A DNA stretch of 64,000 bases. Source: Cristatella mucedo. Taxonomy: Eukaryota; Bryozoa; Phylactolaemata; Cristatellidae. Shown piece after piece: positions 4,148 through 45,125 of the stretch (positions are counted from its first letter, which is position 1; every line of letters begins with the position of its first letter). Location of the stretch: the NCBI GenBank assembly GCA_009760855.2, contig WPIO01000028.1, forward strand, positions 2,798,501 through 2,862,500. The letters run 5' to 3'. The notes under the pieces were generated by a model, which saw nothing but the letters and a program-made list of their open reading frames with translations, was not told the origin of the DNA and ran no database searches. The position numbers and the translations under genes were made by a program.

Positions 4148-4211
4148 TGTAACGCCGAAGGCTCGGCGGGGTAGGATTGACCTGCCGCTTACCTAGCGGC
4201 GTAGCCTAGCG

Positions 4212-6000: not shown

Positions 6001-6142
6001 TTTATTTATTTATCATTTATATCACTTAAGATAACTTAGTCTCCATTCAGGCGTCTCACATATGCCAATGGACTTGAGCCCACGAGCTCGGCCAGACCAT
6101 GGTCTGGGTGACCACCTTAATTGTAGGGTCAAACCAGCCCCA
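6001..6142 (-). repeat. SINE A, near full length
   Basis: Reading the minus strand: tRNA-like head with A-box-like and B-box-like segments, linker, 3' hairpin, then (TTTA)n. Inner hairpin arms are partly mutated (GATAA for GAGAA on the plus strand). The tail abuts the AT microsatellite at its left. Confidence 0.8.
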
Positions 6143-7814
6143 TTCGCTTCTTAGTCAGAACGACGCTTTAAAATTGCATGTCCTACTTCAAAATAGCACG
6201 TGCCTACTGGGCCCTCTGATTAAGTAACGTTCCTTTGGACTAACTTCTTTGCTGAAACTTGATGTCCATTTGATGGCCTGCCAGTAACGATCTCAGCTAA
6301 GTTGTTGACTCCCAGTCTAGGAAACATAATAGCTGTTAAGACCTTAAACCTGTTACCTTCCATCTATGATACTTGGACAGGTTGAACTTAGTTTAGTGGC
6401 AAAATCTTTAAGTCTATGCATACGGTTCCACTGTGAACACTAGCGAGCCGATCCGACATGCTCCTCTGTTTATTCCATCAACTTTCAACAAATACACAAT
6501 ACACGATTTGGCCAGGCCTTATCAGGCAAGCCTCAGTTTAGTTAATTCCTTTATTTGCGACATTCTGTCCCAATGTCTGTGATTACCCTTACGAGTGTGT
6601 CGTCCAGTGCGATACTTCACTTGTAGCATACTGTCATTGCTAACCTCAGTAGCCATTATTGTATTTCGAAAGCTTCGATGTTACCACAAAACTCAACCTT
6701 CACTGAGCTGCACTAGCATCCAAGAAGTATTGATACCAAGGTTATGTAACACATTTTGAAGCCCTTTTAATTATTTTAAGCTTCAGCTTAGTTATAAGAA
6801 TTGCCTAGCAATTACAGCCATGAAACACACCACCGGGCTGTCTGACTAAAACCGTTTAGCTGTGATTCCAACACTTCACAAGTCCTATAGGGACATAGTG
6901 AGTCAGAGACCGTGAAACTGATCTATTAGTGCTGGATAATTTGAAATTTCATACAAGCTTATAGTTTTGAAGTGTAAATATGAATTTAAATCCTCTTCAC
7001 AGTACGAGTTTCGCCTTAATCTAAATTGTAACTACTGCCAAGACTGGGCCGACGGTGAAGCCCATGCAAATGTAAGCGGAGCAACAGCCTTCGATCTTTC
7101 CCAGAGTGTATGACTTGATGTTTAACTATCTCCTACTCTTCCATCAATATTATTTAGTGAGTTTGTAGAGCTGATCGATTTCACTATGGTGTGCAGTGCT
7201 GTACCTCCAAATTAAAGTTGTGGAGAATTATAGCACTCGGCTATCTGCACTAGCAATCACAAGAAATTCTTCAACACGTGTCTTCCCAGAGCTGGTAATC
7301 CGCTAATCCAGTGGCTTTCTTACATGTCATGCGATGACTTAAATCTCGTTTGCGGAATAAAAGCAATCTGGAGTGTTTTATTAACATTAGCAAAGCCATA
7401 TCATTTTCAAAACCATTTGATGGGTCGATAAACTGATTTAAGAATCTCCACTGTTCTTAAACAATTGTTCTCACGTTGCCAGAACAGGAAAGAGAGCTAA
7501 TCATTATTGTAGAAGATTTTTTACCGTAGTTGTAATTATTTACCTGAAGCTGGCGGTATCATGCCTTCTCGGCAGTTCTCTTACTAGCACCGAAGTAAAC
7601 CCTAGAGCTGGCTGACGCCCGAAAGAGCCCCGTAATACCTGCATGCATCTCAGAACCTTTCCGGAAGAGTGATAACTGTAGTATGTTATCTTGCTTAATT
7701 GTTAAACCGTTGGCATGTGTTAATAGAAGATGCAAATCCGTTACTACCCTCGAAATAGATACGTAGATATTCAATGTTTTTAAATAGCACGATTAGTAAC
7801 TTAATGTCTATTCA
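6143..7814. other. 1.7 kb without recognised features
   Basis: No coding motif or match to another repeat of the window was found on either strand. Confidence 0.4.
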
Positions 7815-7872
7815 GTCTATTCAGTCGCTTTACCTATGCCATGGGGCTCGAGATAATGATCTCGGCCATCGA
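7815..7872 (-). repeat. SINE A fragment
   Basis: Only the middle of the element is seen: the junction of the 3' conserved part (TTCAGTCGCTTTACCTATG) and the GGGGCTCGAG box. Both ends are lost. Confidence 0.55.
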
Positions 7873-10498: not shown

Positions 10499-13400
10499 AA
10501 TTTAATAATAATAATAATTGTAATAATAATTCACTTGATAAAGCGCCCTCAGAGAACTTAATCTCTCTCTAGGCGCTTTACATTTGCTGTAAAGTGAAAT
10601 GCAATTGAATGGTAAGTAAAATCATGCTTGAAAAACAAACGAAATGAATAATATGGTTAGTGGTGACAAGCACAGGGTCAGCATGCAAATGTGGTTAGTG
10701 GCAGCATGAACAGTGTCAGCACACATAAGCACATCAAGGACGAATCACAGGGACCCACTGACTGCTGTCCTAAATAGTTGTTTTTAGGTTCCTTTTAAAT
10801 GTGGTCAGGTCAGGGGATGTTCTGACCCAGATCGGGAGGGAGTTCCAGGCTTTGGGAGCATATGAACTAAATGCACGGTCTCCAAAGGATGTAAGGTTTG
10901 TATGAGGTATTTGTAGACTGTTGGATTCAAAAAATCAGGTGGTACGATGCTTGGCCTGGTGGGGGAGTAGATCTGAGAGATAAGCTGGAGCCAAAGAAGG
11001 AAGTGACTTAAAAGCGAGCGACAAAACCTTGAAGTCAATCCGTTGCTTGACTAGTAGCCAGTGCAGGTCAGCGAGAAGTGGAGTGATATGTCAGCTGCGA
11101 CGCTCACGACAGACAAGCCTAGCTGCAGAGTTTTGCACCAGCTGCAATCGCCTGATCGCACTTGCTGGTAGGCCAGTAAGCAGTGAGTTGCAGAAGTCGA
11201 GACGGGATGTCGCGAATGCATGAACCAACTTAGAAGTGGTATCTTTATCTAATGTGGTATCTCCTATCTATATAATTTACATCAGGTGTCCCTGTCTAAA
11301 AAAAGCCCCAGTTTTGGCAATGTTATGCTGCTGAAAGCAGGCATACTTGACTGTGGAGCTCAAATAAATGTCTAATAAAGGTCATTTTAAAAACGACACA
11401 AAGTTTATGTGCTGATTCAAATAGATACATGTTGGCAGAGCAGGTTTTTAGTGTTAGCCTTTCTAATTTTTAATGAGACTTAGTTGGCCCATAATTAGTA
11501 AGTCAGTTACAATCGTTCGATGCCATCCGCATGCTAATTTATGCAGCTAGGTAGTTGAAAGAATTCGATATACTGGAGGGTTTTATTGGTTCAAAGTTAT
11601 GGTGCAAGTGAGTGTCATCTGCTTTAAAGTGACGGCCTAGATTGTGCTTGTCAATCACTTCGGCAAGAGGGAGAAAATATGCTGTGAAAAAAACGGGTCA
11701 AGCACAGAGCCCTGATATTCCCCATATTTTTCAGGCTAATCGGATAATCTTTGCATATTCACATCAATACTCAAGAGTTTACCACTGAGCCGAAACCTCA
11801 CTCATTGCAATTTGATGCCATTGATACACAGATTAAATGCTTTTACAGCTTAGCCATCCCGTTTGTTAAATAGCTGTCTTCCACGGTGGCTTGCAATACA
11901 TTTAACTAGGTCCTTACTTCAGTCTCGGCTAGATTATGGCAAATCCATTTTGGCTGATGTATTCATAAAAGCAAGTAGACCGAGGCAGATGGCTCTGAAT
12001 ATGGCTGCAAAGCTAGTTTGCAAATCCCAGAGGTTTGACCGCTTTCTCCTTTGCTAAGAGAGTTAGGATGGCTGCCGGTTGATCTTCAGATACAGAGCAA
12101 GTTTCTCAAGCTGACCCACAAGGGCTGCCATGGTTTGGCTTTTCCCTACCTAGCTGAACTGCAGCACCAGTTCCGACTCCTCGTGCCCTCAGGTCGCGTA
12201 TAAGTTAGCTGTTTGATTTCTTCGCATTGAAATGTTGCCAACATAAGCTGTATCACAGTAGGTCCTTGACTGTGGAACCAGGTTCTGCTCTTCTTATGCA
12301 ACGACCGCTAGCTTCCTTCTGCTGACTATGGTGCATTCTTTTCAGCGAGCCTGAGCTGCTACTTAAATGCTACTCGCAACCTCAACTGCTCTCTCCTGAC
12401 TCTGCTATGCTTCCCACGTTTTCTGTTGTCATGCGAGATTAAGTTTGTTGTCTATGGCATGCACACCGAAAGCCACTTAGGCTGTGAATGTGCTATACAC
12501 AATTAACCTGCATAACACCCAAACATTCTTCGTAGCTTTGTCGAGTTACAGACGGGCTGACATTAATTACATTGGATGTAGTAAGGAATGACTTAGTGAT
12601 CGGTTGTATCAACAGCGGACGAAAGAACGTACACAATAAGCTGAGATACACTACCTGAATCTGCATTCATTAGTAGATACACCTAAAAAAAATGCTGAAC
12701 CAATGTATTAATGAGCTCTAAAAGAAGACTAGAACTTACTAGCAGGGTAAGGGGTTTCAATTTACAAGTTATGCTGGTCTGGCGTGATTTGTAACTTAAT
12801 CTTTGATAAGAACGGTAGTCGGTAGGTTGGGTGGAAGTTACTCAAATTCAATTGTTCTAGTGATGCATTTTCGAGTAGTGGCATTATTACAGCCACTTTG
12901 AAAGGTGCTGCGACATCACTTTGAGGCTTTCGAAACATTTATGATGTTAATTATGATTGGCAGCTGAAGATCCATGCATCATAGATGCAGGAGTGTCTGA
13001 GTTGGGTCCACAGTACTACTAGACTTATTTGATTGGCCTGTGATATTCAGGACGAGACCACTAGTGACCTACTTGAAATGTTAACATAGAGGGGCTACTC
13101 GGAATTGAGGATTAAGATTCTTAGGGGGTTGCTGCCGTCTTAAGGATAGACTCCCAATTTGATTCTTTTTTGACCAAAAAAAGTGAGTGAAGCTATCAGG
13201 TAACGTCTTTAATATAAGCTAGACTTGACCTTTGCTATACTTGAATGATACAACAGTCATCCTCGTATGCCTGTCTATGAACAGCCAGTCCTAATCTTCC
13301 TACAATTTTTCAACTTGTGCACAGTAGACCAAGCTAGTTTAGTATCTGTGGCAAAACGTAATCCTTGGGGGTAGAGAGCACTGTCAGTTTGGTCAAAGGT

Positions 13401-14679: not shown

Positions 14680-15010
14680 TTTCGTATACGATTTTTGCAA
14701 GAACTTTGGTTTTAAGAAGAATTCTAAAACAAGCACTTTTATTTGCACCTTTAATTATAATACAACGACATCTGCATTCTGATGACCACCCATTTCAGAT
14801 TTATTCTTGCTGTGCTGATTTGGTACTTCCGTGCTACTCACAACCTCAACTGCCGTTTTGAATCACCGATGCTTTTCATTATTTTTATGCATTGGATGGG
14901 ATCTTTTGGTTATTGAACGTATATACAAAACCGGTTAGGCCGTCAATGGCTACATGAAACTCCTCAAGCTTTACATCGGCCTGGTGTTCATGGCTTTGCC
15001 TTGTTAATAA
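14680..15010 (+). mobile_element. Decayed LINE B 3' fragment (tentative)
   Basis: The stretch GCTACTCACAACCTCAACTG (about 14832-14851) and scattered matches on both sides follow the order of the LINE B C-terminal and 3' UTR regions at 12.3-12.5 kb. Similarity is low and the borders are approximate. Confidence 0.4.
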
Positions 15011-18000
15011 TAGACGGATTGCTGTAAATTATACCACAACGTTATTCCATTTTTCCGATATAATTTTTATCAAGGGTAGTCGTGTAGTGTGGTGCAGTTT
15101 TGCTGAAACAATGGGCAACTACATTCCTCAAAATATTGATACCCACTGCCCAGGAACGACGAATGCGAAGGGAGCAGCCGTGAAGGAAGTGTGCCAAAAC
15201 TAGTGACCTACACTGTACGTGTCGATACGATGCCTAGAACTGTTATTTCATGCACACTGCTTAGAGTGGTGAGTGATACGGCGCAGTGAATAAATGGGTC
15301 AGAATAATAATGAAATACCTTTGCCAATGATGGTAACGAAATGACAGTGTTAGCTCATAGCCACGTACCCATACTCCCGTATTCTAAATTCAGGGATACA
15401 GACAGGCATCTTTCGTCCGGTGAGCTGACTAATTAAAGTAAGAAAGTTCTTCATTCCGTCCTTCAAGAGGCAAGATTGCCCACTTCCTTCAAGTGGCAAG
15501 ATGGCACATTGTTGTCTTCCGTGACGGAAATACTATGACTCGGGGGGGGGAAGAACGGGCAGTGGTTCATGGTTCCACAGAAGTTCCGTCTGAGTCAGAA
15601 AGCAGCACGAGAGTTCTAGGAAGCCGGTCAGTGAAGATCATCCTGCAGACTCATATGACCTTGAGCGATATAATTTCTCGAGAGCTTCCGCTCCTATCAG
15701 GACGATTGAAATCCAGATCATTGCAATTTAGAAATTTGATATCTTGATAAGCTTCTGTTTTCATCCGAGGGATATATGCAGGATTTTTCTGGTGTGTAGC
15801 TATATTGTTCCAGTGTTTCTCCCCCTTTACGGTTTTAAGTGAAATTCGTCCCAGATTAAAGACTATTTTTTGGGAAAAGCAGCGATCGAGACTCCCGGTA
15901 GTCAAACCTAAATTTATCATTGAAAGGGCTAGGTCGAGGCTGCTGATCCCGACCATTGATGTTCTGGATATTTTTCCAAGGGCGAAATTCCGTACTTTAT
16001 CTTAGGGTCACTTAAGTACAGGAACAGTAGCATGCCTGTAATTGTGCAATGGATGTAAGGCTGGGCGGCTTTTCGTGCTGCAGCAAGTGTTTGCGAGAAA
16101 TACCAGGATAACAACACTAATATCAGTGAGTTTTTCGGTTTTCAGTGAAGCTACTATACAATCTTTTACGTTATTTAACTTGGGTTTTTCCGGTGCAAGC
16201 TAAGGAACTCCTGGCCCTGTTTACAGTGATTAGGTTTGTACCTGAAATGCCAAAGTTGATGAGATCTACTTAATGCACACCGGGCACACTGAATCATAAT
16301 TCTAGAACAGATGGAGTCACTCCATTTGCCGTCGAGCACTCTATCACCTCACCCGAAGCTTGGTATTATATTTCATTGCTCTGACCGGGACTTCGTAAAA
16401 TGTAGGCCTTATAGTAAAACTATAGTTCAGACACCTAGTATGTAGTCTGCTTTATATGGTCTTAATTAGTGCAGTAAGGACTAACATTGAATTGGCAGTG
16501 AGTGCACGATTGGAGCTTGCAGAAGAGGTAAGTTTTCAATGTACTTCAAGCTGATTGGAAAAGGTTCTTAACGTGAGCCAATCGTAGCAGCGATGTGCCA
16601 GTAGACTTGTACTAGAACTGAACCTAGGGATACACTTGCATAACAGTGCCGGCCTTGGCTCAATTTTTAAACACGAGAATTGCTCAGTTGAGAAAATTCC
16701 TTTGTCCTGGATCAGTGAGCCAAAGAAGAGCACCAGCCTGGTGAAATAAAAATAGCTTAAGCACAAGCCTGGAAGCTTTGGGATCAGCTGTTTTGATTCG
16801 GCATTTAGCATTGGTCTGCTATCCACTGGCGCGGCTGATAGACGATGGCTGGCCTGTCAATCTAGTTCAGAACTCGGTCCTAAAATAATTGTTTGGAACC
16901 GTATCTGCACTCAAGCTGGACTGGATACTAATTCCTTATGGTTATGGCTCTCGATGTCGGCTTCACTGCTTCTATGCACTTACCTTATTGTCTCTGCTAG
17001 GTATTAAAGAGCAGAGTGACAATCGCTCAAGGCAGCGTCTTCGGCTTCATTTTAACCCTGTTGCCGGTAGTTGTCGCACTCGTCTTCTCTAAAAGCGAGG
17101 GAGGTGGGGCTTTTTGCTGGCGATTGATGGAACAGAGTGAGAGAGTGCCAAAAGGATTCCGTGGACGCCACAGAATATGACCACATAGTGCTCATAGCTC
17201 GCATCTTGTGTTTGTGTCCTGCCTGCGTGTGTGCACACGTTATCTCAGCATTTGAATTTGCCAACGCGAATTAGAAGTAGTTCGGTAAAGTACGTGAAGT
17301 ATTCCTGCCTTTACAGTGGAAGCGCAGCCCTGGTTCTCCAGTCACGGCTCAAGCTCTGTTGGTAAGGGCTCCTTCATATATTTGGGTCTGATGAATGAAA
17401 CAATATCCTTTAAGATACCATTCATTCGCACATTGCTCAAGCTTGACGGTCTTTAAGTGAATTTTTTATTCATCACAGGTTTTTAAAGAGAATTTTAAGT
17501 AGTTTGAGTGATGATTTTCTGTCGGGGAGAACAGCATCACCGTCCTAAGACAGGTCCTGGTTGGAGGGGTTAAGATGTCTTGGAACCGACATTAGGATGA
17601 GATTGTTAGAATGTATAGCATTTCAAGTAATTATATTCTTCAAAAATATATGTGGAGCCACAATAATTTTGAAAAATGTAAAGGTAATGATGGTTTATTT
17701 ATTCATTGAAGTCTAAAATGATTATGAGAAAATGTTCAGTTATGATTCTTTACAGCTATTAAAGTAGCTAATTATGTCTATGTTCCCAAACCTTTTATAA
17801 GCTGCAGTGGTTGTGGGCAAGAACCCGGTTAGTGTGATACAGGTTTCCAATGCTGTGATTGAAATCAAATATGGAGATCATATTTATATTAGCTATTTTT
17901 TTCTTTCCTTAAGTAAAAATGGATCACCATAGAACAAAGATGAAACTATGATATAGATATGAAACTATGCATGATGTCATCAAGCATGTTAGCAGACATT

Positions 18001-18943: not shown

Positions 18944-19070
18944 TAATAATAATAATTATAATGTACTTGATAAAGCGCCCTCAGAGAACTTAGTCTCTTT
19001 TTAGGTGCTTTACATTTGCTGCAAAGGGAAATGCAGTGATCCCTATTTTTTAGTGGTGCATAATCAACCC
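18944..19070 (-). mobile_element. LINE A 3' end fragment
   Basis: (AAT)n tail, intact-looking 3' hairpin with one change in an outer arm, and the first part of the 3' UTR (TTTGCTGCAAAGGGAAATGC). The rest is missing, so this is a strongly 5'-truncated insertion. Confidence 0.85.
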
Positions 19071-20304: not shown

Positions 20305-21180
20305 ACTGCTCATGAGGAAATCACGGTCAGGTCAGAATTAGGTAAAGTACCCTGCAAAAGGCTCGCTTTGATTGACCTTTGGGCACCGTTTGATTCAATT
20401 GATCACACAGCCGTTCGGGAGAGCGCCTGCCACCTCTCATTTGTCTAATTGGCTCTAGGCTGCAGTGACTTTGATTAAAGCAGGGTCGGATAACCGAGTG
20501 GAGTGACGTAGCTACCGATTTTGGTAGCTCGATTGCCCACCAGGTGCAAAGTCCTGTTTTATTTCAGAGTTTTCTGATCTCGTTTCGATTCTGCTTGCAA
20601 TAAATCTACATTTCTTTATTACCGTTGATTTCAAAAATCATTTTGATAACATATCTGACGCATTTAGCAATGAATTGTGAGCACTTTCCAACTCAAATGT
20701 ATTCCTACTCATGTTATTTTAAAGAAGATGATGATCATTCGAAGAGCTATTAAGGAACTGGATACACCAATGCTTTCTGCTCTGTGCTTGGTTCGCTTAT
20801 TGCCCCAATATATATCATTCCTCTTGCAGATGCAATAGCTAAGTCAAATTCAGGCTTCGACTTCTATGCGAATGACACAGCTGCACCCATACTTTGACCT
20901 CTGGCAGCCTTTTAGCTATTTTAAAGTTTAGGCTGTTAAGGTGCTCGCCCCGACCAAGGTCTGACTGAGGTCGTGGGCTCGAGCCCCAAGGCATATGTGA
21001 ACTGCAACACCTCTCATGTACCATTATCAAATGTGCTATTGTTAAAATACGAAATATTGAAAAGTTGACTGCCTTCGTGGACAGAGAAACCACACGTCCG
21101 GTGGTGCAATCATTTAGGTAATGCCTTATCAAATTTTGTATTTCACTGTTTCCAGATTTACCGCCTTAAAGTAACCAGGC
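20305..21180 (+). mobile_element. LINE A-like reverse transcriptase fragment
   Basis: Plus-strand translation gives ALIDLWAPFDSIDH, the decayed form of the polymerase motif LxDLSAAFDTIDH, then SVLGSLIAPIYIIPLADAIA and FYANDTAA, which stands where FYADDTQ is expected: the first Asp of the catalytic pair has become Asn. Stops and shifts lie between the motifs. A SINE A copy interrupts it at about 20917-21012, after which RT-like sequence (KIRNIEKLTAF) resumes. Confidence 0.75.
20917..21012 (+). repeat. SINE A, head and middle, inside LINE A
   Basis: Contains GTTAAGGTGCTCGCCCCGACC, a match to the A-box side, then GGTCGTGGGCTCGAGCCCC (B-box side) and GGCATATGTGAA. The 3' hairpin half is lost or unrecognisable. 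Reverse transcriptase sequence flanks it on both sides. Confidence 0.8.
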
Positions 21181-22194: not shown

Positions 22195-22660
22195 GTAGTA
22201 CTTATCAGGAAATCTTTACTATCGGGCTAACAATCATACCACCGCCTTTTCAAAATCTAGCTGTTTATCTATATGTCGTAGAAACATCAAGTCCTTTGGA
22301 GCCCGTGCCTTTAGTTCGTGTTCTCCCAAAGTCCGGGACCCACTCCCGACTTGCTTCACGACATCTCCTGACATTATCACATTAAAACATATGCTAAAAC
22401 GCTTCTGTTTATCAAAACATTTAGTGGTTTTTCGTTATTCATCTTGTGTAGGCTCATACTTGCTGAGATTGTGAATGCTGCCACTAACTATACTTGCATT
22501 CTGATCCTGCACATGTCATCCTTAATTGTGTTGTTCTTGCTGTTCATTGACTATACTACCACTAATCATTCAATCGTGCTTTCTTTTCAGCAAATGTAAA
22601 GTGCACTAGAAAGAAATTGAGTTCTCTAAAAATGCTATATCAGCTCTATCATTATATCAA
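22195..22660 (+). mobile_element. LINE A 3' fragment
   Basis: Plus-strand copy of the C-terminal coding region (decayed 'KSGTHSRL' region), the 3' UTR and the 3' hairpin (AGAAATTGAGTTCTCT near 22612-22627), ending near 22660. It is in the opposite orientation to most copies of the window. Confidence 0.8.
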
Positions 22661-23564: not shown

Positions 23565-24150
23565 CAAAAATAATAATAGTACACTTGATAAAGCGCTCAC
23601 AGAGAACAAAACCCTCTTATAGGAGCTTTATTTTTTCAGCAGAGGAAGTGCCACGACATGGTTAGTGGCAGCATCCTCAATAAACGAAGCGAAGAAAATG
23701 GTTAGGGGTAACATGCACAGGGTCAGCATGCAAGCGTGGTTTGTGGCCGCATGTACAGTGTCGGTGCTCATAAGCACTTAGAGGATGAAATGCGGGGACA
23801 CACCAAATGCTGAGGTAAAGATTTTCCTTTTTAGTTTTGTAATAAACGTGGTCAAATCAGTGGATGTCTTGATAAGAAGTCCGGTGTGAGTCACGGGCTA
23901 TGGGAGCATACGTACTAAAGGCACGGTCTCCACAAAATTTGTCGTTTTTACGAGTTGTAAGTATACAGTAAGATTCCAAAAAGCTGGTGGAACGAAGCTT
24001 ATCCTAAATGAGCAGTTAGCCGGTTAGGTAGGCTTATGAAAGAAATGAAAATGACTTAGAAGTGAGTGACAAAACCTTAAGGTCAATCCGTTGCTTCATA
24101 TGAAGCCAGAGGAGGTCGGCGAAAGGTTGTGTCATGTCGCAACTGCTACA
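23565..24150 (-). mobile_element. LINE A, 5'-truncated
   Basis: AAT-type tail, decayed 3' hairpin, 3' UTR (GGGTCAGCATGCAAG) and C-terminal region, then an abrupt end at CAACTGCTACAATC where the (AAT)n tail of the next LINE A starts. No open frame remains. Confidence 0.85.
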
Positions 24151-24185
24151 ATCAATAATAATAATAATAATAATATTGCACTTGA

Positions 24186-24227
24186 TAAAGCGCCCTCAGA
24201 GAACTTAATCTCTTTCTAGGCGCTTTA
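24186..24227 (-). other. LINE A 3' two-tier hairpin (reference copy)
   Basis: Outer arms TAAAGCGCC (24186-24194) and GGCGCTTTA (24219-24227) pair perfectly over 9 bp. Inner arms AGAGA (24198-24202) and TCTCT (24209-24213) close a 6-base loop. It is followed in element sense by an (ATT)n tail. In the L2/CR1 group the 3' end of the RNA is what the reverse transcriptase recognises; that this hairpin is the signal is inferred from its sharing with SINE A. Confidence 0.8.
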
Positions 24228-25551
24228 CATATGCTGCAAAGTGATATGCAATAGAATAGTAAGTAAAATCATGCTTGAAAAACAAACTGAATAATATGGT
24301 TAGGGGTGACATGCACAGGGTCAGCATGCAAATGTGGTTAGTGGCAGCATGCACAGTGTCAGCACACATAAGCACATCAAGGACGAATCACTGGGACCCA
24401 CTAGATGCTATCCTAAATAGGCGTGTTTTTAAGTTTCTTTTAAATGTGGTCAGGTCAGGGGATGTTCTGACGCAGGTCGGGAGGGAGTTCCAGGCTTTGG
24501 GAGCATACGAGCTAAATGCACGGTCTCCAAAGGATTTAAGGTTTGTACGAGGTATTTCCAGACTGTTGGATTCCGAAAAGTGGGTGGTACGATGCTTGGC
24601 CTGATAAGGTAGTATATCTGAAAGATAGGCTGGAGAACAAGACAGAGAAGCCTAGCTGAAGAGTTCAGCATTAGCTGTAAGCACCCGATCGCTAAAGCCG
24701 GTAGACTGGCAGCAGTGAGTTACAGAGGTCAAGACCGGAGGTTTCAAATGCATGAACCAACTTGGATGTGGTATCCATATCTAAACAAGCCTCATTTTAG
24801 CAAAATTATGTAGCTGAAATTAGGAGGACTTAACTTTGGAGCGACATGTTCGTCTAAAAAAAGCTCAGTTATAAACATGACAACCTAGATTGTGTGCAGA
24901 ATAAACAGGATAAAATCTAGAAGAGTCGATTTTAAGCCGTAACCTTTCTAGTTTCTGAATCACACTTGTTTTTACATGAATACGAGGTCGATTTTATAAT
25001 CATTCAACTTAAGCAAGTTTGCTAAAATCTGTGTGAAGATACTATCAATGCTTGCCGCAAGGGAGTCAAGAGAACTCGAAGTGCTGTTGGAATGGGAGGG
25101 AACAAAGAAAAGGTGTGACTGAGTGTCATCCACGTGGAATTGACAGCCTAGATTGTGCTTAACAATTATATCGGCATGAGGAACAGTATAAACCATGAAA
25201 GGAACCGGAAAAAACATGGCGTGTTGAGGTATTCCATATTTCAGAGGTTCCTCGGATGACCTTTGGTCATTCCTATCAATATTGTAGAGTCTTACACTGA
25301 GATGGGACTTGAATCATTGCAATGCAGTGCCACTAATGCTCAGGTGAGATTAGAAGCACTCAACAAGGACTTGGTAGTTGACAGCATTAGAGCTGCCGAA
25401 ACATTAAGCGTAAAAATATCAGATAATCTACCAGTGTCTGTATTATAAAGTAGTCATCGTTCACCTGACACAATGCTGACTGTGTGGAGTGATTAGCTCT
25501 AAAACCAAACAGGAACTTGGTAGCAAGGTTTGAAGCTTCAATATATGAGTT

Positions 25552-25721
25552 ATAAATAAATAAATAAATAATTCATTTGTATAGCACCCCAAGAGAACTT
25601 AATCTCTATTCAGGCGCTTCACATATGCCTCGGGCTCGAGCCAACGACCTCAGCTAAACCTTGGTCGGGGGCGAGCACCTTAACAGCTGGACCAAACCAG
25701 CTCGGCGGTTCAGAAGGTCGA
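25552..25721 (-). repeat. SINE A, full length, inserted in LINE A RT
   Basis: Flanked by GAGTT on both sides (25547-25551 and 25722-25726), a 5-bp target duplication. Minus-strand order: head of about 30 bases, A-box-like segment, B-box-like GGCTCGAGCCCGAG region, linker, 3' hairpin with outer arms 25583-25588 and 25613-25618 (one G.U pair) and inner arms 25592-25596 and 25603-25607, then (TTTA)n. LINE A copies at 36.84 and 47.02 kb have the uninterrupted GAGTTC site. Confidence 0.9.
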
Positions 25722-26613
25722 GAGTTCAGCTGATCTGCCACGACTGGTTCCAGCGTCTTTGATAGGAATGGCAGAAGAGAGACTGGGCAGTAGTTGCTCA
25801 AGTTCTCTCGGTCTAGTGTCACTTTCTTGTTGAGCTGCCTGACTACCGTCTTTCTGAGAAGGGCTGGAACATGACATAAGGTGACGACTTATTAACGATG
25901 TTAGTTATGAACGACAGCTGCAGATCAATGCATGTTAGAAGCAGGGCATTGTGATTATGATCGAGATTAGTAGTTGTTTTATTTGACTGGGATGTAAACC
26001 TATATATCCTACGAAGATATTTGAATAGGATGAGGTCACTAGCGTCCTCCTTGTATGTAGATATTTAGATGCTGCGACGAATTGAGGGACATCAGTCTAC
26101 AGGGGAAGCTTCCCTCATAGGGATGGAATATCTGATCTTTTCAATGCACTTGATAATGAAACTAGACAAGACATGAGCTAGATCTTCACAGGGATCTTTA
26201 GTTAAGAAGAAATTCTGAGAGCCGTTGAGGAGATGGTTGATCGTCAAGATCGGCATTTTTGGATTATGCATCTGTGATTCAACAATTTTCTTTCCTATAA
26301 GGTAGGCTTTGCCTTTGCTAGGATCAATAGGTATGACCTACAGTATTCCTCATATGCTTGTCGATGGACAGTTAGCTCTGATCTTGTGTATGATTTCTCA
26401 AGCTTGCACTTGATAGACCTAGCTAGTTGGATGTCTGTGGTTAAACTTAAGCCGTCTAGGTGTGGGCACACAGTATGCTTAGAAAGGGGTGCAAACTCAT
26501 CGAGTATGTCGGCTAGTGTTGTTTTGTGGCGATCTAACTATTATGATACATCGGAATGGGGAAGCAGAGGCAGAGGCGAGGGATCTATTCTCATACGGAC
26601 AACATCAACGGTC

Positions 26614-26787
26614 AGCCGCGATGATACACGAGGCAAGGCGCTTGCTTTTCATGGCATCGGCCCCGAGGTCGCAGGTTAAAATCCTACAGTGGATGACCCT
26701 TTACCGCCACTGCTAGCGGTGGCGATAGCCCGTAAACCTTCTTCTGTCACTACTCAAAAGAGGGTGTTCAATCAGCTAGTATGAATG
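26614..26787 (+). repeat. SINE B, full length, with 9-bp target duplication
   Basis: Bounded by TCAACGGTC at 26605-26613 and 26788-26796. It has a tRNA-like head (B box decayed to GGTTAAAATCC), then a body hairpin CGCCACTGC/GCGGTGGCG (26705-26713 and 26716-26724) followed by GATAGCC, then a 3' part ending in AAAAGAGGGTGTTCAATCAGC-type sequence. The LINE A copy near 13.5 kb shows the same place without insertion. Confidence 0.9.
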
Positions 26788-27461
26788 TCAACGGTCTTGT
26801 TGGTTCGTGGTTTATAGGTGATTTTAGATAGGGAAGAGAAGGAACACACTTTTGATTGAATGAGATCTGGATGTGGTCAAAAAGTACAATCTGGTATTAA
26901 TCGGTAACGATAAAGTGCAGTTAAATGACAAAATTTGGTCGGGTGTGTGATGCTTGATGTGAGTAGTTCCATGTAAATGAGCTACAAGAGGCAGTGAGTC
27001 AGTCAGAGCACGAAATTCAGTGCTGAAACTATGGAGAAGTTATACAAAATAAGGTTGAAATCTCCCATTACGAGGTAGAACCGATCTCTTGCACAGAAAA
27101 TCGAAATGAGATAGGAGAAGTCCGAGATTAGGGAGGATTGGGTACCTGGTGGGAGCTGAACTACTGCTATCGTCGGCAGGTTGTCGTCAAGTGAAATTAA
27201 GGCAATCGATTCGAAAGACTACATAGAAGGTACCACAAATGATTTGAAGTCGAATTTTGAACCAATGATAATACAAACTCCACATTCAGTTGTGATTGAT
27301 CCGGGGTTGTGGAAGAATGAGAAACCAGTCGAGCTAGGGTCTTTAATTGTCTGGCAGTTTACTTATTTCAGCCAATTTTAAGTCATAGCCAGCGAATCGG
27401 GACTATTTTTTTTAGAATAGGGCAGCTTATTACTTGAGGTTCATTTCACAATGAGCGATAA

Positions 27462-27668
27462 TAATAACACTAATAATAATAATGCACTTGATAAAGCGCC
27501 CTCAGAGATCTCAATCTCTCTTTAAGCGCTTTATATTTTCTGCAAAGGAGAAATGCACTTAAATGGGAAGTAATGTCATGCTTGATAAACAAACAAAATG
27601 AAAAAAATGGCTAGGGTGGCATGCTCAGGGTCAGCATGCAAATGTGGTTAGTGGCAGCATGCACAGCG
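27462..27668 (-). mobile_element. LINE A 3' UTR fragment
   Basis: (AAT)n tail, 3' hairpin and the first 150 bases of the 3' UTR, ending at GCAGCATGCACAG. It lies immediately upstream, in element sense, of the 5' end of the copy at 24151-27461. Confidence 0.85.
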
Positions 27669-27869: not shown

Positions 27870-27926
27870 GGTATACTATACGGTATACTATACGGTATAC
27901 TATACGGTATACTATACGGTATACTA
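27870..27926. repeat. 12-bp minisatellite, about 4.7 units
   Basis: Perfect tandem units GGTATACTATAC start at 27870, 27882, 27894 and 27906, with a partial fifth unit. The unit contains the palindrome GTATAC. Confidence 0.95.
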
Positions 27927-28263
27927 ACGGTATGCTTTTCTATGGTCAATGCATAGTTAAAGTATCTGAGCGACAACAGAAACATCTTGGAATGCGTTTG
28001 AGCTACAATGACGAAGTGGTAAGTGGTGGGCGTGATTATGCAATGTGATGTAATGTAATGTAACTCCGTCTGTAACTCCACAAAGTCATAAAGACCATGT
28101 GGGTGTTACGCAGGAGAGTTTTGTATAGCCCATTCACAGCCTAAGCGACTTTCGGTACGCATTCGGTAGCCAACAGACTTCGTCTCACGCAACAAAGAGA
28201 AAGTGGGAAGCATAGCAGAGTCCGGAGAGCAGTTGAGGTAGTAAGTAGCATAGAAGTAGCAGC

Positions 28264-29019
28264 TCACGACCGCTGAAAAAGATGAGCCATAGTCGGCAGT
28301 AGGAGAGTAAAAATAAAATAAAATGAAGAGTAATTTTCGTTGCGTAAGAATTGTGGAAGCGAGTTCCACAGTCTAGGACCTGCAGAGCTAAATCTTCTGT
28401 CGCCAACTGTCTTTAAACTGAGGAATGAAACAGCTAATTTATTGTCCACACATGACCCGAGGGCGCGCACAGGCTGAAATAGATGCAGAAGTTCAGCTTG
28501 GTACGAAGGAGCCAAGCAGTGGTGGGCCTTGTGGGTCAGCATAGGAACTTTGCTCTGTATCCTTTACTCAACCAGCAACCATCCTAGCTTTTTCAGCAAT
28601 GGAGACACGTGCCAAAACCGCTGGGACTTGAAGACTAGCTTTGCAGCCATATTCATAGTCAGCTGCAGTGGCATAGTAGCTTTTTTTGGCAGCCCAGCCA
28701 ATAGGGTATTTCAATAATCACGCCGAGACAGAAATAAAGAGCTAGTTATTGTTTTTACAAGCCACTGTGGGAGACAGCTCCTAATCTTGGATTGGGATCG
28801 GATGTGATGGCTAGCTGTAGAGGCAGTCTTCCGAATGAAGCTTTTGAAATTAAGGCAGCTGTCGAACACGACACCTAAATTTCGAGCACGTGGTGATGGT
28901 CGCACGACAGCATTGCCTATTAGAACAGAAAAGCCTTTGAATCCAGCCACACGCTTAGGGTTTCCTATGAGCAGCAGTTCGGTTTTATCATCATTTAATT
29001 TCCGGGAGTTTTCCGACAT
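28264..29019 (-). pseudogene. LINE B ORF2, C-terminal part (broken)
   Basis: Two open pieces (28711-29019 and 28264-28542) joined across a frameshift. The first begins with SENSRKLNDDKTELLLIGNP, the end of the palm/thumb region (LNDDKTELL follows the active site in this clade), then CLPQWLVKTITSSLFLSRRDY. The second contains LTHKAHHCLAPSYQAELL and SSAGPRLWNSLPQFLRNE, the usual end of L2-like ORF2 proteins. The frame closes just before the 3' UTR. Confidence 0.9.
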
Positions 29020-29745
29020 CCAGGATCAAAAATCGGCAAGGCAGGCATTCAGTTTCTTAGTTGTGCAGCGGATTCCGACGGTTGGAATGACAAATACAAC
29101 TGAGTATCGTCAGCATAAAAGTGATATCCTATTCCATGTGCCTTAATCACTTTTCCCACAGGTTGTGTATAAATAAAGAACAGCAAGGGACCGAGTACAA
29201 CCCTTGAGGGACTCTACAGGTGACCCTGCTCGTGTCTGAGACCTGATCCCCACACGACACGGATTGAACACGATCAGATAAGTATGATTTAAACACGCCG
29301 GTGCTTCGTCTGCGAGACCGATCGTTGTTCTCAATCGTTCAAACAGTACCTCGTGATCAATGGTGTCGAAGGCAGCAGACAGATCTAGCAGAGCTAGGGC
29401 AGTGACATTCCCGCCGTCGTTGCTACGTAGAATGTCATTATTAACACGGAGGAGAGCAGTTTCAGTAGAGTGCTGCCTCTTGATCCCTGATCGAAATGTT
29501 TCTGACATTCCATTATTTTTAATACGCTCAACCAGCTGCTTAGCAACAATTTTTTCAAGAATTTTTTGTAAGAACGAAAGAAGGGAAACTTGGCAATAGT
29601 TTGGTAGGAGCTCTGTGTCTAATCCAGGCTTTTTAAGAATAGGTCTAACGATTGCCGATTTGAATGACTTGGGGACGACCCCTCTTCCCAAAGAAGCAAT
29701 ACAAATCTTGGTTATGGCAAGGCTAAGTTGGTCTGCTAGTGGAGA
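29020..29745 (-). pseudogene. LINE B ORF2, reverse transcriptase core (broken)
   Basis: The frame at 29143-29691 reads PKSFKSAIVRPILKKPGLDT, then the fingers motif NYCQVSLLSFLQKILEKIV, HSTETALLRVNNDIL and the first catalytic-Asp motif LALLDLSAAFDTIDHEVL. A frameshift follows. The next frame, just left of it, has [20 protein letters not shown] and the intact active site [14 protein letters not shown], with YADD encoded at 29106-29117. Known function of the family: target-primed reverse transcription in the nucleus. The frameshifts make this copy non-functional. Confidence 0.92.
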
Positions 29746-29755
29746 CCACAGAGAT

Positions 29756-29900
29756 TAAATATAATTCATTTATATGGCGCCCCAAGATAAATTAATCTCT
29801 ATTCAGGGGCTTCACATATGCCTTGGGGCTCGAGCCCACGACCTCAGTCAGACCTTAGTCGGGGCGAGCACGTTAACCGCTAGACCAAACCAGTTCGGCA
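29756..29900 (-). repeat. SINE A, full length, inserted in LINE B ORF2
   Basis: Complete head (CCGAACTGGTTTGGTCTAGC), A- and B-box-like segments, 3' hairpin (inner arm partly mutated) and AT-rich tail. A 4-bp duplication AGAT flanks it (29752-29755 and 29901-29904). LINE B coding sequence is collinear on the two sides (SPEDPIS... to the right, SLWSPLADQLSLAITK to the left). Confidence 0.9.
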
Positions 29901-29904
29901 AGAT

Positions 29905-30644
29905 GAAGATATAGGGTCTTCAGGAGACGAGCTCTTTTTGCTAGACCTTATTAAGGCAGCCACATCACAGGCAGAAACATCAGAGAACCTTTTAAGAAAG
30001 GTCAAAGGTTGAGGAACGGCGATTGCTTTGGTCGGAGGGGGCTTAATGGAGGCACGAATGTGCACACTTTTTTTCAGTAAAGAAGGCTGAAAACTTTTTG
30101 GCTGAGCCCTTAATATCTGGGGAGTCAGACCTCACAGCATTGGCCAGTAAATGGTTTACTGTCGTATAAATCTGTTTAGTGTCCGACTGGCAGGAATTCA
30201 GTCTTCTAATGAAAAAAAAAGCCCTGGCTTTTTTTAGCTTTCGGGCGTAAACTTGAAGGAAGTCTTTAAAATTGACTAGGTCTGCCTCAGACCCAGATTT
30301 TTTGAAACGACGTTCAGTCTGCGCTTAACACGGCGCATCTTAAGGAGTTTTTTTGTAAATTGAAAGCAATCTCGACGACTTTGAACACGGATAGAGCGAA
30401 CGGGAGCATGCTTGTCAAGAGCACTTCTGAATGTCATGTTCATCGCATCATTGAGGGTATCGAGACTGCCGGTCGTGTCTGAATGCAGATCAAGAAGGCC
30501 TGCATCACAAACAGATTTCAAAAACTTGTCTATGTCAATGCTTTGCAAGTTACGTCGTTTGCAAATTCGACATTGCCCTGTATGTACGAGAGAGCTGGAA
30601 CAGTCAACGAGATTGAACAATAATCTGAGAGGGTCAGTGGGCAC
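29905..30644 (-). pseudogene. LINE B ORF2, linker between endonuclease and RT
   Basis: The frame at 30276-30644 includes RNLQSIDIDKFLKSVCDAGL and ALDKHAPVRSIRVQSR, which matches the KHAP-type linker of L2/CR1 ORF2 proteins. After a shift the frame at 29880-30065 gives PLTFLKRFSDVSACDVAALI and SPEDPIS, the segment just before the RT. SINE A interrupts the coding sequence right after it. Confidence 0.85.
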
Positions 30645-30670
30645 ACCACAAGGTCAGTGGGGAGGACATC

Positions 30671-31235
30671 CTAAGTGATCACGAGATCTAGAATGTGGCC
30701 ACCGACGTGGGTGCTATGATTAACGTGTTGGGCCAAATCAAAATTCGCCAGACAGTCAAGAAATGAGCGGACCTGGCTGTTGCTAGGGTTGTCAACGTGA
30801 ATATTCAAGTCACCTACAATCAGTAACGGCCTGTCACACGCAAATATTTTAGCCGGGAACTCTGAAAACTCCTCTATAAACAAGTTTAGACAGCCAGAAA
30901 GAGTCCGGTATATTACGCAGGTGAGAGGCATCGTCTTTGATGAAGACTTGATAGCGACCGATTCAAACGATGACCCATGCGAGAAACTGCACATTTTATA
31001 GCCAAACGATTCGCGAACAACAATTGCAACCCCGCCATAAACCTTGTCAGAACGCATGGACTGATAGAATGAGAACTCGGCTGAAGTGATCTCGGAAATA
31101 CAGCTACTGGAACAAATTGTCAGCCTGGTTTCGGTAAGCAGAAATGCATCTAGCTTCTCCTGGATTACCTGATCGCGGATAAGTAACCCCTTCGTTTTAG
31201 CCAGCAGACATTTATTAGGCTGAGTTTAAGAGGCT
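30671..31235 (-). pseudogene. LINE B ORF2, APE-type endonuclease
   Basis: Minus strand: KLDAFLLTETRLTIC carries the catalytic Glu motif (LTET, about 31.13 kb). The frame 30671-31057 continues with YGGVAIVVRESFGYKMCSFS, ESVAIKSSSKTMPLTCVIYR, the metal-site motif PLLIVGDLNIHVDNPSNS, and THVGGHILDLVIT, which stands for the terminal SDHH-containing region of apurinic endonucleases. This domain nicks target DNA in non-LTR retrotransposition. The next residues are cut off from the linker by a frame change. Confidence 0.92.
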
Positions 31236-33501: not shown

Positions 33502-33680
33502 TGGTGAGCCGTGATGGTGCAATAGGTAAGTAATGAGGCTGCTATTTGCTACCTTGGTTCCGAGGTCGTGGGTTCGAATCCTGTGTGCAAACCTTTATTG
33601 CCACTGCTGTCGGTGGCGATAGCCATCAAGAATCCTCCGTCGCTACACAAAAGAGGCTGCTAACACAGCTAGCATTTTTT
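33502..33680 (+). repeat. SINE B, best-preserved head
   Basis: A-box-like TGGTGCAATAGG (33515-33526) and a consensus B box GGTTCGAATCC (33571-33581), 56 bases apart, mark a pol III promoter derived from a tRNA. The body hairpin (GCCAC...GTGGC, about 33600-33617) and GATAGCC follow, then AAAAGAGGCTGCTAACACAG and an AGCATTTTTTT end, which could act as a pol III stop. Confidence 0.85.
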
Positions 33681-35894: not shown

Positions 35895-37180
35895 ACTTAT
35901 GACAACTGGGTTAGAAACTGTGACGCTCACCACAGAGAAGCTTAGCTGTGCATTTTTGCACTAGCTGTAAATGCCGTAGTGCACAACCATTACACAACCA
36001 GCACAACCAGTAGCAGTTACAGAAGTCATGACGGGATCTCAAAAATGCATGAAACAATTTAGATGTGGTATTCCTGTCTAAACAAGCCCGAAATCTACCA
36101 ATGCTATGTAACTAAAGTAGGCAGACGACTTTGGTGCTGATTTAGAAGTCTAATGAAAGATCACTTTGGACCATAGCATCTTTATTTCGCGCAGAGTCGA
36201 CATGACGTCTCGGCAGAAGAGATTTTCAGGGTTAACCTTTCCAATTAATTGGATCCCAATTTGTTTGTCGATACTGAGTAGGTTGGTTCTGTTATCACTT
36301 AATTGTGGAACGTTCACTACCATCCTTGTGCAAACGTCAATAATAATATAATTCTTTTGTAATGCGCCCTAAGAGTACTTAATCTATATTATACGCTTCG
36401 CAGATGCATCGGTGCTCGAGCCTACGACCTTAGCCAGGCCTCGGTTGAGGCAAGCACCTTAACCATTGAACCAAACCCGCTCGGCTAATCAATACATACA
36501 GCAAGGAAGTTAAGATAGTTCAACGGGCTGAAGGGCTGGGAGACATCAGAGAGAAGAGCAACGGAGTGTCTGCAACCTTGAACTGAGTTAATACCTGAAC
36601 CATTGCAAAGCAGAGTCAGTGACGCTCAGACAGATGAAAGGCTTACAAGAAGGACTTGGTGATCGACAGTATCGAAGGCTCTGCTGAAAGATTGGGCAAA
36701 ACAAGCAGGGATACTCTACTTAAGTCTGCATTGGTAAGTTGGTCGTTATGCATCCATCCCCATGCTGATTCTGTGGAGTGATTACCTCTAAAATCAAAGT
36801 TAATCTTACTAGCAAGTTTTGAAGTTTTAATATATGAGTTCGGCTGGTCTGCCATGAATCGATCCAGTGCCTTTTATAGGGAAGGTAGAAGGGAGGCTAT
36901 GTGCACGTTGCTCAAGTTCTCTTGGTTTTTTGCTGATTTAATAAGTATTGGTAGACTGCAGTCTTTTTGAAAGATACTGGGACATGACCAGAGGCTCATG
37001 CCAGATCTGAAATGTGATTTGTGCATGCCAGCAACATATCAATGCATCATAGAAGCCGGGCAATGGGAATATGATCCAAAAGATTATTACCTTATTTTGA
37101 CAGTAGCAAACGCAATAAATTGGGTTTCTAGCCTCTTTTATAAAGCTGAAAAATTATTTGAAAAGCAGCTGGTGCCTTGG
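35895..37180 (-). mobile_element. LINE A internal fragment with nested SINE A
   Basis: Runs from the C-terminal region (GACGCTCACCACAGAGAAGC, matching the 'gacgctcacgacagacaagc' type segment of other copies) through the reverse transcriptase (ACTTGGTGATCGACAGTATCG; AATATATGAGTTCGGCTGGTC) to the linker. The 3' UTR and hairpin are missing at the left and the endonuclease at the right. The minus-strand frame 36643-36855 contains NFDFRGNHSTESA and LSRVSLLVLPNLSAE, decayed RT motifs. Confidence 0.85.
36343..36487 (-). repeat. SINE A, full length, inserted in LINE A
   Basis: Head (GCGGGTTTGGTTCAATGGTT on the minus strand), GGCTCGAGCA box, 3' hairpin with several substitutions, AT-rich tail. It is among the more diverged copies. 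LINE A sequence flanks it on both sides. Confidence 0.85.
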
Positions 37181-39136: not shown

Positions 39137-40420
39137 ACGATAATAATAATGGTAGATATGCACTTGATAAAGCGCCCTCAGAGAACCCAATTTCTTTCTA
39201 GGCACTTTATATTTGCTGCAAAGAGAAACCCGATTAAAAGGTGAGTAATATCATGCTTCATAAACACCATGAATAACAGGGTTAGGGATGACATGCAGGG
39301 GGTCAGCATGCAAGTGTGATAAGTGGCAGCATGCACAGTGACAGCACCCACAAGCACATGAAGGATGAATCACAAGGACCTACTAAATGATCCCCTTAAT
39401 AGGTGTGTTTTTAAGTTCTTTATAAATGTGGTCAAGTTAGGGTATTTTCTGACGCCAGTCGGAAGTGAGTTCCAGGCTTTGGAAGCATACGAACTAAATG
39501 GACTTTCACCAAAGGATTTGAGGTTTGCACTAGGTATTGGTGAACTGTTGGATTCCGAAAAGCGAGTGGTACGATGATGCGGGAGCCTGATGGGGGAGCA
39601 CATCTGAGAGATAGGCTGGAGCCAAGCAATTAGGTGACCAAAAAGTGAGCAACAAAACCTTGAATTCGATCCGTTACTTGTCTGGCAGCCAGTACAGGTC
39701 GGCGAGAAGTGGTTGGTGTGGCAACTGCGATGCTCATGACAAATAAGCCTAGCTGCCGAGTTTTGCACCAGCTGTAATCTCCAGATTGCACATACCAGAA
39801 AGTAGTAAGTTAAAGAAAAGAAGACGGGATGTTGTGAATGCAATGACCAACTTAGCTGTGGTATCCTTATCTAAACATGCCCGAAGTTTTATGCAGCTGA
39901 AAGTAGGCGGACTTGATTATGAAGCTGATGTGGTCGTCTGTGGAGAGGTCACTTTGGAACGTGACACCTAGAGTTTGGGCTGATTCAACAGGAGATATGC
40001 TGGCAGAGCCATATTTGAGCGTCAGCCTTTCCAGTTTCTGAATCGCATTGGGCTTGTCCGTAACTAGTAAATTAGTTTTATCATCGTTTTGTTTTATAAA
40101 TTTTTCTGCCATCCATATGAGGATGTCATCAATACATGCAGAAAGTGAGTTGAGAGAGTTAAAGGTGCTCGAAGGCTGGGAGGGATCAAAGCAAATGTAC
40201 AATTCAATGTCATCCACATAGAGCTGAAAGCCTAAATTGTGCTTGGCAATCACAACTGCAAGAGAGAGAGTATTAACTGTGAAAAGAACTGGATCTAGCA
40301 GGGATCCCTGAGGTACCCCATATTTCAGTGTAGATTGGCATAGTAGCTGAAGCTGGTTGTGGTTTCCAGACTCACCATCAATACAGCAGGAATAACTAGT
40401 AATCCGAAGATTTTACTCGG
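39137..40420 (-). mobile_element. LINE A, 3' half with longest C-terminal frame
   Basis: AAT-type tail, 3' hairpin, 3' UTR, then two long minus-strand frames. Frame 39370-39843 (157 codons) reads LQLVQNSAARLICHEH near its start and SSYASKAWNSLPTGVRKYPN near its end, the standard C-terminal region of L2-like ORF2. Frame 39867-40253 has FQLYVDDIELYICFDPSQPS with the active site as YVDD (40209-40220) and SLSACIDDILIWMAEKFIKQ. The copy is truncated just upstream of the active site, at about GDPRGTPYF. It is one of the less decayed LINE A copies. Confidence 0.9.
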
Positions 40421-41690: not shown

Positions 41691-43145
41691 TTCGACTTTA
41701 AAGTACTGACTTAGGTATCTACCAATGCTGTGACCTTTGTTTACAAGCAGGTGCACTTACACTTATTCCACGGATTCCATTACAGCCCAGCAGTAAATTA
41801 GACCTACAACGGAATATGAAGCGAAATCACAACTTGGACTGTCAAGAAAATCAAGCCATGCACCACCTAAAGGAATTACGAGTCTTATCTAAGACTTCAG
41901 ACAGCTCCATCCCTGCTCTATAGCTAACTCAATAACGCCCCTGCATCCACTCTTACTGTTTGAAGTCAGTCTGTTTTTTAAATGCTGCATTTCTCTTCCG
42001 TTCTCTAGGTGAGTGATTTGAAGTATGTTGCAAGCGAAAAATAGCTTACACATCTTAATGGAGACGTTCAGCCAAGATAATCATAATTGCAACATTCTTT
42101 ATAAAGCGTCCTCGGAGAAGTCAATATCTTTCTATGTGCTATACGTTTGCTGCAAAGGAGACACGAAGGAACGGTTTTGAACTACATGCTTGTTAAACAA
42201 AAATGACAAAATGGTGAGGAATGACATGCACATGTCAGCCGGCCAGAGTCATGTGGTCATTGGCAGCATGCACAGTGTCAGCAAGCAGTATCAAATAAAG
42301 ACAAATCCAAGCGATCCATAAAATGCTTCTGCAAATAGGTGGATTTGTAGTTGTTCTTAACTGTGATCAAGTCATGGTGGTCGTGAGAGAAGTCCATACA
42401 GATTCCCAGGCTTAGGGCTAATATGAACTAAAAGCACGGTCTCCAAAGGATTTGAGGTTTGTATGACGTGAAGGCAAACATTTAGACTAACAAAATGGTG
42501 TCGGTACGATTTTTAGCATGATAGGGCAGTATATCTGATAGGTAGGTTATAGCCAAAGTATGAAGGAACCTGAAATTGAGCGACAAACCCACTGAAGTCG
42601 ATGCTTTGCTTGACTGGGAGCCAGTGCAGGTCGGCGAAAAGGAGTGTAATGTTGCTACTCGGACGGTCAGGACAGGTAATGCTAGCTACAAAGTTGTGCA
42701 CCAGCTGTGGGCCATGATTGCTCTTATCTTTAGACCAGAAAGCTGCTACATAGAAAAAGTAAAGTAGTTCATGCATTTTATTTATGTCTAACGCTCATTA
42801 CGGTCAACTTTCCTTCATTAGTGGTATGGGTGTGGAAAACAATGCTTCATTTTCAGCGATTGCAAATTCTGACCTCGTTAATTGCATTTATTTTAGAAGT
42901 CAGTCATGCCTAGATTAGATATTATCTTATAGTCAGCTCTTCTGTGATCATTGGTAACAAAGTAGTACTTGCATTCTGGCCTTTTAAATCTACCTTTAAA
43001 CTTATTCGAGCAACATTCAGTTAAAATTGTGTGCACTTTGAAAGGCCTCTCGAAGCTTCATATCGTGGTGTAGTGATGCATAGGCAGTCTCTCGCTTCAA
43101 ACCAGCAACTTCTTGCTACACAAGTACCATCCTCTGTGGATCCTT
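41691..43145. repeat. Tandem duplication, unit 1
   Basis: About 1.46 kb unit repeated next to itself. Landmarks common to both units: TTTAAAGTACT..CTTA, GGTGCACTTACACT (41750-41763 and 43246-43259), the LINE A fragment, and ATCGTGGTGTAGTGATGCAT near the end. The offset between units varies from about 1465 to 1496 bases through indels. Confidence 0.8.
42085..42778 (-). mobile_element. LINE A 3' fragment within tandem unit 1
   Basis: Decayed tail and hairpin (ATAAAGCGTCCTCGGAGAAG), 3' UTR, and C-terminal region ending at AGAAAGCTGCTACATAG. Minus-strand frame 42513-42776 keeps the HWLPVKQSIDF element typical of L2-like ORF2. Its partner at 43545-44228 has the same ends, so one insertion was duplicated. 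Confidence 0.85.
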
Positions 43146-44970: not shown

Positions 44971-45125
44971 GTGAGCCGGGACGTGCACACGTAGTATGTG
45001 TGAGCCGGGACGTGAACACGTAGTATGAAGCAGCCGGGACGTGCACGCGTAGTATGAAGCAGCCGGGACGTGCACACGTAGTATGTGTGAGCCGGGACGT
45101 GCACACATAGTATGAAGCAGCCACA
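44971..45125. repeat. 29-bp minisatellite, 5 to 6 units
   Basis: The AGCCGGGACGTG core recurs exactly every 29 bases (44974, 45003, 45032, 45061, 45090), with a decayed sixth near 45119. Two unit types differ just before the core (GTGTG or GAAGC). Each unit holds ACGTGCACACGT, an inverted pair of ACGTG half sites. Long minus-strand frames across it exist only because the repeat lacks stops. Confidence 0.95.

Follow-up and report, generated by a model that had tools for sequence, protein, structure and literature searches.

A homologous two-tier 3' hairpin points to a probable LINE/SINE partnership in Cristatella mucedo

The question raised by this locus is whether a SINE with a tRNA-like head (SINE A) and a LINE (LINE A) end in the same 3' hairpin because the SINE is copied by the enzyme of the LINE, as the initial annotation of this DNA had proposed. 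All results rest on copies within the window, i.e., the whole 64-kb stretch that was analysed. Our reading, to which we give a probability of about 0.82, is that the two families form a stringent-type LINE/SINE pair, in which SINE A would be copied by the enzyme of LINE A (or of some subfamily of it) via the hairpin in their shared tail. The homology of the tails, the contrast with a second LINE (LINE B) and a nested insertion speak for this partnership, whereas the arguments from covariation, from a G.U pair and from a (TTTA)n tail failed or were weakened.

The hairpin itself was found in both families where it had been placed. In LINE A (24186-24227, minus strand) it reads TAAAGCGCC - TAGAA - AGAGA - TTAAGT - TCTCT - GAG - GGCGCTTTA, and the segment 24180-24230 that contains it folds with a minimum free energy (MFE) of -22.4 kcal/mol (z -5.2). 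Both SINE A hairpins cited at the outset (25583-25618, minus; 52611-52646, plus) read AGCGCC - TGAAT - AGAGA - TTAAGT - TCTCT - (T/A)GG - GGTGCT, with the upper stem and loop of LINE A and a 6-bp lower stem that includes one G.U pair. The lower three LINE A pairs (TAA/TTA) are partly kept in SINE A (U-A in 6/7 and G.U in 7/7 copies), with an A.A mismatch among them in 6/7 copies. The asymmetric internal loop of LINE A lies 5 bp from the terminal loop; a distance of 4-6 bp between an internal loop or bulge and the terminal loop is described in PMC5135761 as a common feature of the LINE stem-loops reported there. The outer 3' arm of SINE A had been given as GGTGCT or GGCGCT: both cited copies indeed carry GGTGCT, but neither has GGCGCT, and the seven aligned copies vary (GGTGCT in two, then GGCGCC, GGCGCA, GGAACT, AGCCCT and one deletion). 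The change from GGCGCT to GGTGCT, formerly read as pairing preserved through G.U, says little about selection for such a pair, because the C-to-T behind it sits in a CpG and ordinary decay explains it.

Iterative nhmmer searches seeded with the LINE A tail yielded 22 tails (15 LINE-type and 7 SINE-type), and a SINE A search further revealed a rearranged copy (7764-7868) and a head that lacks the tail (20926-21005), which brings LINE A to 14 full tails and one partial tail and SINE A to eight tails and one tail-less head (Table 1). The alignment used below comprises 14 LINE A and seven SINE A tails; the partial LINE tail at 49117-49159, the rearranged SINE and the tail-less head were omitted from it. 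Both a sequence-plus-structure and a sequence-only model recovered their own 21 input tails and no convincing new copy in the window.

Table 1. Positions of the LINE A, SINE A and LINE B features in the window
Feature	Positions	Strand	Remarks
LINE A two-tier hairpin	24186-24227	-	9-bp lower stem, asymmetric internal loop, 5-bp upper stem, TTAAGT loop
SINE A	25560-25701	-	within LINE A RT region; hairpin 25583-25618; (TTTA)n tail; AACTC on both sides
SINE A	52527-52669	+	hairpin 52611-52646; (AT)n tail
SINE A	49453-49594	-	A and B boxes intact; (ATATTT)n tail
SINE A	29757-29893	-	A and B boxes intact; inside LINE B copy; terminal repeat ATTATATTTA
SINE A	36340-36480	-	flanked by two LINE A segments; short (ATT)n tail
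SINE A	6013-6138	-	3' arm partly deleted; (TAAA)n tail
SINE A	723-819	+	head truncated or diverged; terminal repeat ATTATATTTA
SINE A	7764-7868	-	internal duplication in tail
SINE A head	20926-21005	+	similarity ends just before hairpin; truncated or other tail; flanked by LINE A segments
LINE A tail	10521-10594	-	least-diverged group; 14/14 pairs
LINE A tail	18953-19026	-	least-diverged group
LINE A tail	27474-27547	-	
LINE A tail	39150-39223	-	RT ORF upstream at 39867-40412
LINE A tail	45533-45605	-	
LINE A tail	42084-42157	-	diverged (old)
LINE A tail	43549-43622	-	diverged (old)
LINE A tail	23571-23644	-	diverged (old)
LINE A tail	59652-59725	-	diverged (old)
LINE A tail	22583-22657	+	diverged (old); 3' arm CTATA like SINE A
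LINE A tail	53290-53363	+	diverged (old); SINE state at 4/5 changed diagnostic columns; continues as TTATTTTTACTTTTA
LINE A tail	1127-1200	-	diverged (old); SINE state at 5/7 changed diagnostic columns
LINE A tail	63664-63735	-	diverged (old)
Partial LINE A tail	49117-49159	-	
LINE A copy	24168-27398	-	one of three least diverged; 3' UTR, (ATT)n tail; interrupted by SINE A
LINE A copy 24168-27398, parts	27398-27039; 26516-26310; 25870-24793; 24639-24412	-	decayed EN; EN-RT linker; RT pieces; C-terminus
LINE B	28053-31225	-	second EN-RT LINE; unrelated 3' end; (ATTAC)n-type tail; carries SINE A 29757-29893

LINE A and SINE A have a homologous 3' end of about 55 nt. A profile built from the 14 LINE copies only found six of the seven SINE tails at E-values between 1.1e-8 and 4.9e-4, the remaining tail having E 2.9, and the consensuses of six younger LINE A and seven SINE A tails are identical at 45 of 57 columns, the 12 differences including one lower-stem mismatch. 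When one LINE A tail was aligned by Smith-Waterman with six of the nine SINE A copies, the scores were 45-68 and the shuffle maxima 24-30. Short inverted repeats are generally known to be frequent in AT-rich DNA, and a hairpin common to both families could in principle arise by chance or convergence; however, the real match was equalled by none of 1000 dinucleotide shuffles in any of the six copies, contrary to the possibility that the tails align no better than shuffled sequence, and the similarity reaches past the hairpin on both sides, so that we regard such an origin as extremely improbable. LINE B served as the contrast for tail specificity within the window, and a natural one, since LINE A and LINE B are related but their 3' ends are not: against the same six SINE A copies its 3' end scored only 12-20, and 266 to 794 of 1000 shuffles were as good in five of the six (22/1000 in the sixth), a match at or near chance.

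The remainder of SINE A is short, the whole element (about 140-145 nt) consisting of an A box, a B box, a few nucleotides and then the LINE-like tail. Its head carries the internal A and B boxes of Pol III promoters: among the nine copies the A-box pattern was present in five, the B-box pattern in six and the properly spaced pair in three, and the spaced pattern occurred four times in the window (three of them in SINE A) as against 0.12 times on average in 50 shuffles of the window. ARAGORN found no tRNA in the window, and with a relaxed threshold its single call on a SINE A copy lay on the antisense strand and was set aside. Rfam gave no tRNA match either, neither in the whole window at gathering scores nor, with E-values up to 10 allowed, in 52500-52640 and 49500-49600. 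The head may be Leu/Ser-like. Judged by the spacing (few nucleotides from B box to tail), a CORE-, V-, Deu- or MetaSINE central domain is absent. The terminal repeats differ among the copies (Table 1), and (TTTA)n, which had been given as the tail of SINE A, occurs in just one of the seven aligned copies (25560) and is not a family-wide character. Elsewhere in the window, a tRNA-like stretch with A and B boxes at 33515-33590 (plus strand; GGTTCGAATCC) does not belong to SINE A and is possibly a second SINE head.

In the proposed partnership, SINE A would combine a tRNA-like head, whose A and B boxes serve as the promoter, almost directly with a tail acquired from a LINE A transcript, probably by template switching in the course of target-primed reverse transcription. 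Its RNA would be made by Pol III, and the protein of LINE A or some subfamily of it (an EN-RT enzyme, apparently L2/CR1-like) would bind to the hairpin of this RNA in the same way as to its own and then copy SINE A into nicked DNA in trans.

Past movement of SINE A can be followed at one site, where the copy 25560-25701 sits within the RT region of a LINE A copy (24168-27398) and splits it. In an alignment with another LINE A copy (46800-47260), both flanks include the same AACTC, which ends the left flank and begins the right one, and about 20 unassigned nt separate the left AACTC from the start of SINE A. This is the only one of seven SINE A copies that could be compared with an uninterrupted LINE copy, and target duplications were not clear around the six others. 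The host belongs to the three LINE A copies that have diverged least (consensus identity 0.894, 0.897 and 0.891; grouping support 0.15-0.73), and SINE A therefore moved during or after the recent activity of LINE A. Two further SINE A pieces (36340-36480 and 20926-21005) are flanked by LINE A segments, and the copy at 29757-29893 sits within LINE B. As LINE A makes up about 22% of the window (some SINE-tail hits being counted in), these positions show no insertion preference.

Whether the hairpin, as opposed to the sequence that contains it, is the recognised signal was addressed by folding and by the pattern of substitutions. Consensus pairs are kept at 14/14 in LINE A and 13/14 in SINE A, and single-copy folds of 10 hand-chosen tails among the 21 aligned gave z values of -2.6 to -6.3 in nine, the exception being an old LINE copy (53301-53351, z +0.2). 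RNAalifold predicted no pairs on all 21 aligned tails, and the single-copy folds and consensus pairing were used in place of folding an all-tail consensus. The excess of paired substitutions that had been anticipated in the stems was absent (three pairs with both sides changed versus 3.1 in shuffled data), an outcome that had been named beforehand as refuting the idea; the test has little power, however, because dead copies decay neutrally. When substitutions were redistributed in simulations, pair retention was no better than under random placement (P 0.94 for LINE, 0.71 for SINE), and stems have decayed at about the rate of loops and flanks both in LINE A (66/390, 34/196 and 57/307 substitutions, respectively) and in SINE A (24/193, 12/97 and 20/131). 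Two SINE A copies (748-820, plus; 29756-29828, minus) pair their lower stem out of register, as GGCUC/GAGCC and GCCCC/GGGGC, respectively, which may be due to chance or slippage.

The lack of stem constraint among the copies is what neutral decay would produce, and it speaks neither for nor against a structure that was maintained in the source elements. The lack of both compensatory changes and stem-specific conservation is what would be expected if the tail were homologous but the enzyme read its linear sequence, or the terminal repeat, and not the hairpin; we consider this unlikely, as near-complete pairing is kept in both family consensuses, constraint cannot show in dead copies, and zebrafish L2 LINEs are reported to need both the stem structure and the loop (PMC4176376). 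Recognition of the hairpin by the reverse transcriptase of LINE A is suggested by analogy with the published work on L2-clade LINEs. A further question is which LINE A was the partner. SINE A has TGAAG...GCTATA and AAATG where the younger LINE A copies have TAAAG...GCTTTA and AAGTG, and a SINE-like lower stem with the bases that follow it is present in two old LINE A copies (1127-1200 and 53290-53363, with the SINE state at 5/7 and 4/5 changed diagnostic columns). The true partner might therefore be an older or unseen LINE A-related lineage with CTATA at the 3' arm, to which the least-diverged copies are tied by shared ancestry only. Such a lineage, which falls within our preferred reading if it is counted as LINE A, is a possibility to be taken seriously, although the less probable one: over all eight older LINE A copies there was no excess toward the SINE state (13 observed versus 13.5 expected, P=0.56), and both SINE-like copies were picked after looking. 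The earlier suggestion of a partner closely related to LINE A accordingly finds two fitting copies but no general trend, and these same two copies are the only ones that come near the LINE subfamily with a (TTTA)n tail that had been sought.

The third loop base fits the least-diverged group instead, being A in 7/7 SINEs, in 3/3 least-diverged LINE A copies and in 2/11 other LINE A copies, with G or T in 9 of all 14; this comparison uses a column picked post hoc, a weakly supported LINE grouping and SINE copies that are not independent of each other. It is a doubtful idea, put forward tentatively, that SINE A follows, in its loop, whichever LINE A subfamily was active most recently, while its lower stem retains or drifts towards other states; if true, this would document in nature how recognition by way of the loop drives the coevolution of SINEs and LINEs. 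Because the loop is described as the specificity determinant in zebrafish L2 LINEs (PMC4176376), the loop-base pattern is a lead worth following.

The partnership with LINE A requires an enzyme, and LINE A appears, from its decayed copies, to encode a reverse transcriptase: the fragment 39867-40412 matched Pfam RVT_1 at 29.1 bits (E 1e-6), just below the cut-off of 29.6 that LINE B exceeds with 36 bits, and other LINE A pieces match the LINE B RT by tblastn (aligned RT pieces 34-53% identical). No intact LINE A ORF was seen in the window. The endonuclease is fainter in both elements, with an Exo_endo_phos score of 23.4 bits in LINE B (cut-off 24.5) and one tblastn match of 28% identity between the LINE A and LINE B EN (E 3.7e-7). 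Order and strand suggest that the 5' pieces listed in Table 1 are part of the same LINE A copy (24168-27398). A resemblance of motifs suggests that both LINEs may be of the L2/CR1 kind. LINE A also has the EN-RT linker, and in ZfL2-2 this linker is reported to bind the tail (PMC4176376). In an ungapped placement by eye of decayed copies against P324, W325, R334, E341 and W344 (ZfL2-2 numbering), the two better LINE A linkers have Arg at the presumed position 334 in both, Glu at 341 in one and the two Trp in neither; a third copy was too broken to place.

Several observations concern LINE B and the surrounding sequence. Relatives of the LINE B 3' end lie at 12465-12564 (+), 32008-31910 (-), 54811-54909 (+), 14927-15018 (+) and 2358-2302 (-), and a LINE B 3' fragment (11836-12565, plus) sits in opposite orientation inside a LINE A copy (12758-12569 and 11837-11100, minus). 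A candidate LINE B 3' hairpin folds at 28068-28110 (-17.0 kcal/mol, a value without a shuffle test), a second copy did not form it when folded, and wider LINE B stretches gave z values of +0.3 and -1.5. In scans for relatives, exact patterns had no match in viral_contigs, a protein-based scan gave 13 pattern matches of which none was confirmed, and the LINE B RT had no plasmid match; seven PDB sequences matched at E up to 1, all of them reverse transcriptases and LINE-1 ORF2 among them. The window also contains tandem repeats at 4209-4278 (21-bp unit), 4488-4753 (122 bp), 27870-27933 (12 bp) and 44974-45122 (29 bp).

Recognition of the stem-loop has been demonstrated experimentally for LINEs of eel and zebrafish. 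LINE and SINE tails with a common stem-loop are described from many animals, including for L2 and CR1 LINEs (PMC3747384, PMC2653535, PMC5135761, PMC4176376), and for ZfL2-1 and ZfL2-2 of zebrafish the evidence includes stem-loop swaps with retrotransposition and binding assays (PMC4176376). The general principle is thus long established, and SINE A/LINE A is a likely addition to the catalogue of known pairs. Our literature search showed no paper naming SINE A, which may well be catalogued already. The table of a 2013 review is rich in vertebrates and has at least one entry under protostomes (PMC3747384).

Among the known systems, UnaL2/UnaSINE1 of the eel (L2 clade, stringent type) resembles the present pair in a shared 3' stem-loop followed by a short repeat, but has a GGAUA loop and (TGTAA)n (PMC5135761) where LINE A and SINE A have TTAAGT and a repeat that is (ATT)n in LINE A but differs among the SINE A copies; UnaSINEs are, moreover, listed as CORE-SINEs (PMC3747384), whereas a central domain would not fit into SINE A. 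ZfL2-1 and ZfL2-2 likewise have a 3' tail with a loop and a stem in an upper and a lower region, i.e., the two-tier form, which is recognised by the cognate protein (PMC4176376); both are active in assays, whereas LINE A is known here from decayed copies only. HAmo SINE and HAmoL2 of carp, a tRNA-derived SINE and an L2 LINE, have a tail of about 42 bp with a hairpin in common that differs at one base (PMC2653535), and the difference at 12 of 57 columns between SINE A and younger LINE A thus indicates that our pair is older or that the partner is not the youngest LINE A. Set beside these systems, the shared-tail partnership of SINE A and LINE A is ordinary in kind and probably right, a stringent-type pair apparently of the L2/CR1 kind.
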